Virus record (IMG/VR): IMGVR_UViG_3300026320_000024
Coordinates: 1 to 27,711 of that record
DNA: 27,711 nt
DNA from: a virus
Strand: one strand, 5' to 3'
Position 1 is the first letter of the stretch, and every line of letters begins with the position of its first letter. Positions 25,625 to 27,711 of this stretch are shown in pieces. The position numbers were made by a program, and so were the translations under genes. The notes beneath the pieces were generated by a model that was given only the letters and a program-made list of their open reading frames with translations, did not search any database and was not told where the DNA came from.

Positions 25625-25765
25625 TTATTCAGGCATTAGCGAGAATGCGATACTGACGGCGGAGAGGGGTACGACGTAAGGCATGGCTACGAATAAACAG
25701 ACTGCGGCTGCTACTGCGGCGATAACCGCGGCAGCAATCTTAATGAAATGAAATACCTGACTCAT
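25625..25765 (-). CDS. Small Ala-rich membrane peptide (46 aa)
   Basis: The frame reads MSQVFHFIKIAAAVIAAVA, then AAVCLFVAMPYVVPLSAVSI and AFSLMPE. Residues 8-28 form a membrane helix, and a second, shorter hydrophobic segment follows Pro29-Tyr30 (31-43), so a hairpin or re-entrant topology is possible. ATG shares one base with the TAA of the 99-aa gene (TAATG). The next gene begins 4 bases after its TAA. Function is unknown; a holin-type role cannot be excluded. Confidence 0.65.
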   Translation of the reverse strand: MSQVFHFIKIAAAVIAAVAAAVCLFVAMPYVVPLSAVSIAFSLMPE

Positions 25766-26064
25766 TATGCGACCTGAGTCTGAGTCTGAGGTTGAGGTTT
25801 AGATTGTTTCTCTATGATCTTCTTAGGATCTTGACTATCTCTAATCTCTTGAAGAGACTTACTATCAATCTTATTGACGTTAGTCATTACAGCTTCACCA
25901 TGAAGTCTTGTAAGATTCTTGTGCTCGTCGTCTGTCAATTGAAGATCAGTCAGCTTTGCGTTCTCACGTTCACCGTCTTTGTACATGACGATGTAGTTCG
26001 GAGCTTCGTCAAGTCCGTCTGTTTTAGAAAGCAGAGAGACTTCACGGTTTCTTAAAAGGGCCAT
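25765..26064 (-). CDS. First gene of the leftward operon, conserved phage protein (99 aa)
   Basis: The protein begins MALLRNREVSLLSKTDGLDEA, shortened here to its key part NREVSLL, then PNYIVMYKDGERENAKLTDL, QLTDDEHKNLTRLHGEAV, and a Lys/Gln/Pro-rich end (KSKPQ-type, ending QTQTQVA). It has a small beta-sheet-like first half and a helical second half. I recall related small proteins upstream of TerL in other podoviruses and know no function. It is the promoter-proximal gene, about 47 bases after the predicted start site. A role as a small terminase is conceivable from position, but no helix-turn-helix is evident. Confidence 0.75.
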   Translation of the reverse strand: MALLRNREVSLLSKTDGLDEAPNYIVMYKDGERENAKLTDLQLTDDEHKNLTRLHGEAVMTNVNKIDSKSLQEIRDSQDPKKIIEKQSKPQPQTQTQVA

Positions 26065-26109
26065 TGAATTATAATTCCTGTGTTTGTGGAGGGATATCTA
26101 GATTTATCC

Positions 26110-26138
26110 TTGACAATATTATAACACAGGTGTATAGT
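26110..26138 (+). promoter_or_regulatory. Rightward sigma70-type promoter of the accessory operon
   Basis: TTGACA (26110-26115, 6 of 6 consensus) and TATAGT (26133-26138, 5 of 6) are separated by exactly 17 bases. Transcription would start near 26145, right at the AAGGA ribosome site (26146-26150), so the leader of the DUF4326 message is only about 10 bases. This suggests an early, strong, host-polymerase promoter. Confidence 0.85.
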
Positions 26139-26147
26139 AGCTGTAAA
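26118..26147 (-). promoter_or_regulatory. Leftward sigma70-type promoter of the structural operon
   Basis: On the minus strand TTTACA (26147-26142, 5 of 6 consensus) and TATAAT (26123-26118, 6 of 6) are 18 bases apart. TGT directly before TATAAT makes an extended -10 element. Transcription would start near 26111, about 47 bases before the first leftward gene. It is interlocked with the rightward promoter. Confidence 0.8.
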
Positions 26148-26155
26148 GGAAATTC

Positions 26156-26407
26156 ATGAAAGTAGTACATTGCAAGAAGGAACCGTATGATGTATATATT
26201 GGACGCCCATCTAAATGGGGAAACGACTATATCATTGGAAGAGATGGAACGCGCGAGGAGTGCATTAGAAAATTCAGGATTGCGCTTGAACGATCCCCAG
26301 AGAAACTTCAAGCTTTATCTGAACTACGAGGGAAAACTCTTGGTTGTTGGTGCGCCCCTTTACCATGCCATGGAGACGTATTGATGGAGATGGCGAATGG
26401 AGATTAA
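26156..26407 (+). CDS. DUF4326 protein (83 aa)
   Basis: The whole chain matches the DUF4326 pattern: VVHCKKEPYDVYIGRPSKWG (3-22), GRDGTREECIRKFR (28-41) and ELRGKTLGCWCAPLPCHGD (56-74). The conserved Cys/His cluster of the last segment (CWC...PCHGD) is complete, and may bind metal or form an active site. The biochemical function of the family is not known to me. AAGGA lies 5 bases before ATG. It heads the rightward series, and the YspA-type SLOG protein is two genes on; such genes commonly occur in phages. A role early in infection is inferred from the promoter. Confidence 0.9.
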   Translation: MKVVHCKKEPYDVYIGRPSKWGNDYIIGRDGTREECIRKFRIALERSPEKLQALSELRGKTLGCWCAPLPCHGDVLMEMANGD

Positions 26408-26552
26408 ATCGACATGGACTAAGTTTAGACTCCATCTGTATAACGGAAAGCAAACTGAATGGTATGAGAGAGATAAATACGAAGAAGTGAAATCAGACCA
26501 TAAGGGTAGGATTGTCGGAGTGGAAGTCAATAACCCGGAGTTTTTGATGTGA
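26397..26552 (+). CDS. Small hydrophilic protein (51 aa)
   Basis: The frame reads MEIKSTWTKFRLHLYNGKQT, then EWYERDKYEEVKSDHKGRIV and GVEVNNPEFLM. It overlaps the DUF4326 gene end by 11 bases and its TGA overlaps the GTG of the SLOG gene (GTGA). The composition (aromatic and charged, beta-strand-like start and end) is protein-like. It fills a gap of about 140 bases between two sure genes in a compact operon. No family is recognised. Confidence 0.7.
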   Translation: MEIKSTWTKFRLHLYNGKQTEWYERDKYEEVKSDHKGRIVGVEVNNPEFLM

Positions 26553-26890
26553 GAGTACTAGTATGTGGAAGTAGACACTTCCATGATAAGGAGTTGATGG
26601 AAGATGTCCTCAAAGAATGGAATATCCGAACAATTATTGAGGGAGAGGCTAGAGGAGCAGATACTCTTGCTAGACAATACGCTGAAAAGTACGGAATCGA
26701 TGTCTGTCCTTTCCCAGCATTATGGGATAAGCATGGAAGAGCTGCAGGGCCAATTAGAAACACACAGATGCTTCGCGAAGGTAAGCCTGATCTCGTTGTC
26801 GCCTTCCTTGCCAAAGACAGTCGAGGAACCCAAAATATGATTGATCAAGCTATGAAAGCTGGAATAGATGTTAGGATTGTCGAGATATGA
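26549..26890 (+). CDS. YspA-like SLOG-family protein, DUF2493 (113 aa)
   Basis: The Rossmann-like SLOG pattern is complete: VLVCGSRHF (3-11) with the nucleotide-binding GSR; EGEARGADTLARQYA (31-45); FPALWDKHGRAAGPIRNTQ (55-73); then PDLVVAFL and SRGTQNMIDQA near 80-101. SLOG proteins bind or process nucleotides and related ligands; the family includes LOG-type and DprA-type proteins, and comparative work has linked it to biological conflict systems. The exact ligand is unknown here. GTG start overlaps the TGA of the 51-aa gene. It probably acts early in infection, by inference from the promoter. Confidence 0.92.
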   Translation: MRVLVCGSRHFHDKELMEDVLKEWNIRTIIEGEARGADTLARQYAEKYGIDVCPFPALWDKHGRAAGPIRNTQMLREGKPDLVVAFLAKDSRGTQNMIDQAMKAGIDVRIVEI

Positions 26891-27078
26891 AAATAGGACC
26901 TGAATTAATAGAAGATGGGGAGATGTTTAGAGTTAGGTGGCCGGACGGAGAAATCACCGATATGGTGAACAAAACTAGGGCAAAAGAGGCAATTCGGAGA
27001 TATTTAGAGTCGAAGGGGAGGATCGACCGTAGAATGCCCGGCAGAGCCCTAGAGAAGGCCCGTGGTGCGTTTAAATAG
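26887..27078 (+). CDS. Small basic protein (63 aa)
   Basis: The protein begins MKIGPELIEDGEMFRVRWPD, a beta-rich start with the turn WPDGEITDMV, and continues with a basic helical part (TRAKEAIRRYLESKGRIDRR, ending ARGAFK). A nucleic-acid-binding role would fit the charge but is inference. ATGA overlap with the SLOG gene couples the two. I do not recognise the family. Confidence 0.7.
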   Translation: MKIGPELIEDGEMFRVRWPDGEITDMVNKTRAKEAIRRYLESKGRIDRRMPGRALEKARGAFK

Positions 27079-27414: not shown

Positions 27415-27606
27415 AGAGTAAATAAAAATCTGGTGAGATAATCTTTAGGTGTAATTCATTGCGGTTTTCAGACCCCCCGTTCCCCCTTTGTACCCTGCCG
27501 TGGCATGCAAAATACCAGCTGAACGCTAGGAAGGTAAGGTTATACCGTAAGGACCATAGGTTCATTAATGATCTATAATGTACCGCTAAGAGGTATCATT
27601 CTACCG

Positions 27607-27627
27607 AAGGGAACTTAGGGTTCCCTT
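27607..27627. repeat. Inverted repeat, 8-bp arms
   Basis: AAGGGAAC (27607-27614) and GTTCCCTT (27620-27627) are perfect complements around a 5-base centre. No U-run follows on either strand. The arm shares GGAAC with the palindrome at 27641-27654. Confidence 0.7.
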
Positions 27628-27640
27628 ATGGAACCATTAG

Positions 27641-27654
27641 GGAACTATAGTTCC
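27641..27654. repeat. Perfect 14-bp palindrome GGAACTATAGTTCC
   Basis: The sequence is self-complementary without spacer, so as DNA it is an ideal site for a dimeric binding protein. Its half GGAACTATA recurs at 27671-27679 and inverted at 27704-27711. Confidence 0.8.
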
Positions 27655-27668
27655 TACATCCGTAGGAA
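27651..27668. repeat. Inverted repeat, 7-bp arms, overlapping the palindrome
   Basis: TTCCTAC (27651-27657) and GTAGGAA (27662-27668) pair perfectly around ATCC. The left arm uses the same bases as the right half of the 27641-27654 palindrome, so in RNA the two foldings exclude each other. Confidence 0.7.
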
Positions 27669-27671
27669 GTG

Positions 27672-27711
27672 GAACTATATTTCAGTATCTCCAGATAGTG
27701 CATTATAGTTC
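27672..27711. repeat. Long-range inverted repeat reaching the window edge
   Basis: GAACTATA (27672-27679) and TATAGTTC (27704-27711) are perfect complements. Between them TATCT-CC-AGATA forms an inner small hairpin. The outer arm may extend beyond the window. Confidence 0.6.

Follow-up and report, generated by a model that had tools for sequence, protein, structure and literature searches.

Opposite sigma70 promoters that occupy one short stretch of DNA are known from E. coli, for instance at acrA/acrR and soxS/soxR (PMC12825309, PMC10268837). E. coli bidirectional promoters share a single -10 element, and their starts lie most often 18 bp apart, with spacings of 10 and 23 bp also found (PMC12825309, PMC10268837). 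Polymerase cannot bind such a pair both ways, and greater activity on one side can suppress the opposite one, as when a stronger -35 on one side suppresses the opposite transcript (PMC12825309). The natural E. coli examples that have been tested were too weak to compete unless one side was activated (PMC12825309). In pLS20, the divergent promoters Pc and Pr overlap in full, their boxes are proposed to coincide exactly, one is strong and the other weak, and the overlap is presented as a single layer within a switch that also involves the regulator Rco (PMC4207663). In phi29, the early and late promoters A2c, A2b, and A3 are controlled together in one region, where p4 and p6, two proteins of the phage, alter the shape of the DNA on binding it (PMC3100819).

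Here, we analyzed a 27,711-base IMG/VR virus record (the window, meaning this whole stretch), in which two complete predicted promoters on opposite strands use the same DNA between divergent genes (Table 1). The site, which we call the hub, thus appears to belong to the general, already known kind of overlapping divergent promoter pairs, with a geometry different from that of the shared -10 type of E. coli. Because its two -10 hexamers are separate, 9 bp apart, and its predicted starts lie 34 bp apart, it falls outside the Warman/Grainger definition of a bidirectional promoter, although it would work like one: as in the E. coli pairs, polymerase would be unable to bind both ways, and raising one side could suppress the other. 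Unlike those pairs, with their shared -10 and weak basal activity, each hub promoter has its own -10 and a near-consensus -35. The nearest described layout is that of pLS20 Pc/Pr, in which each -10 likewise lies at or near the other promoter's -35 (PMC4207663); in the hub, by contrast, the boxes are offset, both promoters are near consensus, and no regulator was recognized in the early arm of one relative. Relative to phi29, the hub promoters are interlocked, and no protein like p4 or p6 was recognized (PMC3100819). We put at roughly 60% the probability that the hub is a conserved, interlocked, bidirectional sigma70-type promoter at the genome divide, on which the two orientations of the host polymerase would compete.

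TABLE 1 Coordinates of the predicted promoters and of the genes on either side of them in the window
Feature	Positions	Strand	Basis or remark
Predicted rightward (early-side) promoter	26110-26138	+	-35 TTGACA 26110-26115, spacer 17 bp, -10 TATAGT 26133-26138
Predicted leftward (structural-side) promoter	26118-26147	-	-35 TTTACA 26147-26142, spacer 18 bp, -10 TATAAT 26123-26118
Shine-Dalgarno-like AAAGGA of DUF4326 gene	26145-26150	+	Begins at predicted rightward start; leader 11 nt
DUF4326 gene, first on early side, 83 aa	26156-26407	+	Pfam PF14216, E 1.3e-27
Short ORF, 51 aa, between the DUF4326 and SLOG genes	26397-26552	+	ORF list; few-base overlaps with both neighbors, operon-like
SLOG (YAcAr/YspA-type) gene, 113 aa	26549-26890	+	Pfam PF10686, E 6.1e-14
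ORF, 63 aa, next in early-side operon	26887-27078	+	ORF list; without Pfam or PHROG match
First structural-side gene, 99 aa, no assigned function	25765-26064	-	ORF list; predicted leader 47 nt
Structural arm	68-26064	-	ORFs and PHROG matches
Terminase	25026-23461	-	PHROG match
Portal	23105-21291	-	PHROG match
Major head protein	20228-19269	-	PHROG match

Both promoters matched the sigma70-type consensus at 11 of 12 positions; these scores are consensus matches rather than measured strengths, and the sigma70 preferences of the host were assumed. The leftward -10 is extended by a preceding TG (TGTTATAAT). From the spacing, the rightward start is predicted near 26145 and the leftward start near 26111. 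Within 20.0 to 27.7 kb the two promoters are the top two promoter-like sites, no other reaching 11/12, and the whole window holds a single further site at that score, which is intragenic (17201-17174). Across 300 shuffles that preserved its dinucleotides, the window never yielded an interlocked pair in which each promoter scored at least 11/12; when at least 10/12 was required of each, 0.067 pairs appeared per window, none of them at the 34-bp offset. The claim of a sequence-only reading that two near-consensus promoters share 38 bases here therefore stands, with every coordinate confirmed and the pairing beyond chance in shuffles. A search against RNA families gave no match, and searching at the DNA level for named relatives of this junction gave nothing beyond short matches to other phages around the DUF4326 start.

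We then took terminase relatives from IMG/VR and examined the loci upstream of their structural genes. The sequence-only reading had staked its proposal on related phages conserving both element pairs rather than one, and this check, once run, came out in its favor: the same register, with starts 34 bp apart, was present in about 20 distinct relatives. Seven distinct pairs had both promoters at 10/12 or better at exactly 34 bp, compared to 0.015 per offset in shuffled loci. When 60 loci were scanned for 24 fixed positions, 10 scored at least 20 (the window scored 22), a score never reached after these loci had been put through a single mononucleotide shuffle. Mean identity in the unconstrained spacer bases was only 38%. 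The terminase tree is wide, and many of its branches, including well-supported ones, carry the 34-bp layout, suggesting that it is probably old in the group, with loss or alteration in some members.

Related layouts of another size also occur, with starts 33 bp (L002), 31 bp (L037), or 29 bp apart; the last of these (L045) has both promoters at 12/12 and lies about 4299 bases upstream of the terminase gene. In another relative (L042), about 3572 bases upstream of terminase, the starts are 18 bp apart and the -10 is shared, which matches the E. coli layout. More distant relatives have one strong promoter, facing the structural arm. The interlocked pair was absent from all eight named phages of the Zobellviridae type searched (ICP2, O4, Pecta, KpnP_VR7901, ctOsX528, MEP401, SIO1, and 1.264.O).

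The rightward -10 was assessed separately by scanning all of IMG/VR with a pattern (TTKACA-N18-TATAMT-NN-TGTCAA) that specifies the leftward promoter and, of the rightward one, the -35 but not the -10. The pattern matched 51 stretches; terminase relatives mostly had a rightward -10 at the expected position, and the others mostly did not. After removal of near-duplicates, the mean match, out of 6 bases, was 3.94 in 17 relatives and 1.95 in 19 others (one-sided p = 4e-4, a value that is only indicative because the relatives are not independent samples). Sliding the hexamer elsewhere (-3 to +9 tested) lowered the mean to 1.1 to 2.8. In two relatives that scored poorly (L200 and L209), the -10 is shifted by a single base and the spacer is 16 bp long. 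The best-kept of the free bases include -12T, -11A, and -7T, the bases that sigma70 reads most strongly. A strict Fisher test of family against outside matches was weaker for the rightward -10 (p = 0.04) than this graded comparison, because a -10-like hexamer is present in 4 of the 19 outside matches and -7T is missing from some relatives. Given that the -10 is kept in register while the spacer drifts, selection appears to hold both promoters and not merely the DNA, and this conservation lends indirect support to the use of both predicted starts.

These data bear on the idea that the structural-side promoter alone works and that the rightward match arises only because the sequence is AT-rich. 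A few relatives do have a degraded rightward -10 (weak or without -7T in L169, L171, L186, L198, and L208), and some retain the structural-side promoter alone, as this idea would have it. We nonetheless regard it as improbable, since the rightward -10 stays in register with a sigma70 base profile amid a drifting spacer, the early gene's Shine-Dalgarno sequence sits at the right distance, and the 29-bp variant has both promoters perfect.

The site is truly divergent, with reverse-strand ORFs running from 26064 to 68 and the DUF4326/SLOG ORFs on the forward strand from 26156 onward. The 99-aa gene that opens the structural side has seven relatives in IMG/VR. What had been described as a structural operon of 26 kb carries one caveat, since it contains, 3' of the head protein gene, a strong terminator-like hairpin on the minus strand (18761-18746; six G-C pairs, GGGGGCTTCGGCCCCC then TTTT). 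On the other side, the DUF4326 and SLOG families are predicted, in a published prediction rather than a test, to act on ADP-ribose-type immune signals, and genes of this sort are believed to come into play at an early stage of infection (PMC9503650). One or the other is the first early-side gene in 10 of 21 hubs: DUF4326 in the window, G001, and G002, and SLOG in L166, L176, L180, L186, L200, L209, and L045. At the far end of the window, positions 27570 to 27711 are noncoding and carry nested palindromes around GGAACTATAGTTCC; an element, AGATAGTGCATTATAGTTC, recurs with its inverted partner in G001 (L214:18190-18294), about as far from the hub as in the window, and may be an origin, an operator, or a packaging site.

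Early-side leaders are mostly 11 to 30 nt across hubs, so that the mRNAs would start almost at the ribosome-binding site, and in many hubs ribosome-binding sites lie 3' of the predicted starts on both sides. Such tight packing is what would be expected if two promoters and two ribosome-binding sites had simply been fitted into the smallest divergent gap, with mutual exclusion a tolerated side effect. Phage genomes are dense, and in five relatives (L171, L172, L187, L208, and L213) the start codons are just 54 to 61 bp apart and leaders are 9 to 17 nt, those on the structural side 9 to 11 nt. Roomier gaps keep the register all the same: the window has 91 bp between start codons, and L176, L180, L196, L184, and L022 have 107 to 148 bp. 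Moreover, the other geometries (33, 31, 29, and 18 bp) overlap too. We therefore consider compaction possible, though doubtful; it is the most serious rival to competing orientations, and supercoiling coupling, a single working promoter, and a dyad-bound regulator are less likely.

Longer relatives place the hub within the whole genome. Eight of the ten searched contain exactly one copy, and in six long genomes (49 to 52 kb, four of them with terminal repeats of 90 to 127 bases) the two arms diverge at the hub, with a structural arm of about 28 kb on one side and an early/replication arm of about 22 kb on the other. The placement of the site at a divergent gene junction, as first read, was thus confirmed in the window and in these six relatives. 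In G002 the early/replication arm encodes a Toprim/DnaB helicase-primase, DNA polymerase A, and a Cas4-like exonuclease, and the hub is the sole site of at least 10/12 facing the structural arm; other genomes have a few more. As the early arm of the long genomes continues past the hub, what had been called a competing DUF4326/SLOG operon is correct for the first early-side genes but too narrow as a unit: it is the start of an arm that leads into all of replication. This arm has extra promoter-like sites near 1, 3, 5, and 9 to 10 kb from the hub, at similar places across genomes, and early-side expression may therefore be independent of the hub. About 9 to 10 kb into the arm, all six genomes (G001 to G006, L214 to L231) carry TTGACA-18-TACAAT (TACAGT in G006). 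The two-arm plan seen in the relatives resembles that of Zobellviridae (ICP2, O4, Pecta, KpnP_VR7901, 1.264.O, SIO1, and MEP401); the portal is up to 46% identical to that of ICP2, and the head genes match PHROGs. Unlike the hub genomes, the Zobellviridae examined lack the interlocked pair, and some encode a sigma-like factor that has no match in the hub genomes.

That difference bears on which polymerase would use the hub. Sigma70_r2 and Sigma70_r4 were not found in the hub genomes, in a search in which KpnP_VR7901's own factor also fell below the cutoff; a phage sigma factor as the user of one promoter was set aside on this result. Host sigma70 is the likely user, given the lack of a sigma factor match, although a divergent phage factor could have been missed, and we infer that both promoters would be used by host RNA polymerase. 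No single-subunit phage RNA polymerase was matched in the hub genomes, but this result is uninformative, as control genomes gave none either. A search for the host in genome collections returned only two distant matches, both in metagenome bins and neither interpretable. Among the named phages, O4 (L232) and Vibrio 1.264.O (L238) have sigma-70-like factors between their helicase and DNA polymerase genes, and ICP2 has neither a sigma match nor a hub.

With the usual sigma70 geometry, polymerase on either promoter would cover about 26090 to 26166, and each open complex would melt the opposite promoter's -35, which sits at or beside the other's start bubble. Because these footprints nearly coincide, both promoters could not be occupied at once, and the hub would probably hold one polymerase at a time, serving one genome half. 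The hub would then split polymerase between the early side (DUF4326/SLOG, with its predicted counter-defense role, then the replication genes) and the structural arm, and strengthening one side would weaken the other. As both promoters are near consensus, such competition would be expected without an activator.

Close divergent promoters sense each other's supercoiling, and a study has reportedly treated E. coli divergent promoters and superhelical density. It could thus be proposed that negative supercoils from one polymerase open the other promoter, so that both sides rise together. This seems very improbable here, given that nearly coincident footprints would block simultaneous use and that near-consensus promoters are the least in need of supercoiling.

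The sequence-only reading had gone further and called the site an either/or switch, with a regulator at a shared dyad tipping the balance. The dyad (ACAG N11 CTGT) does exist in the window, and also in L168, but its arms are only 4 bp long and all four pairs are intact in just 2 of 21 hubs; as an operator it was ruled out for want of conservation. Nor was a DNA-binding regulator recognizable in the early arm of the relative G002, for which about 20 proteins were considered. A true switch in which a dedicated regulator binds the dyad has a precedent in Rco of pLS20, which acts at overlapping divergent promoters (PMC4207663); given these two results, we judge it the least likely of the explanations weighed. 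The switch also fails as a memory, since competition divides polymerase and stores no state, and some factor able to shift the balance would be required for switching. The label "either/or switch" goes too far. With neither regulator nor memory found, the hub is better described as a splitter that could be tipped.

Returning to competition between orientations, a stronger version of it would make promoter geometry a regulator-free timer throughout the clade, in which the orientation of host polymerase mainly sets early and late expression and is tipped by phage-made changes to the polymerase or its supply. We hold this to be unlikely. As a separate observation, a protein of G002 (L218:2043-3050) partially matches a PHROG of T7-type protein kinases annotated as host transcription inhibitors, and matches to this PHROG occur in three of seven hub genomes (G002, G005, and G007), just upstream of the DNA polymerase gene; as a lead only, they could bear on early/late timing.

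A strong-strong pair held in a fixed 34-bp register, clade-wide, at the genome divide of phages was not found in the literature searched, which was mostly nonsubscription. Both hub promoters are near consensus and are kept so at the genome divide, and the hub may be a natural case of constant competition. If so, it would offer a part of about 38 bp for studying how orientation is chosen between early genes and virion building, and it could be used for two-way expression in laboratory circuits.
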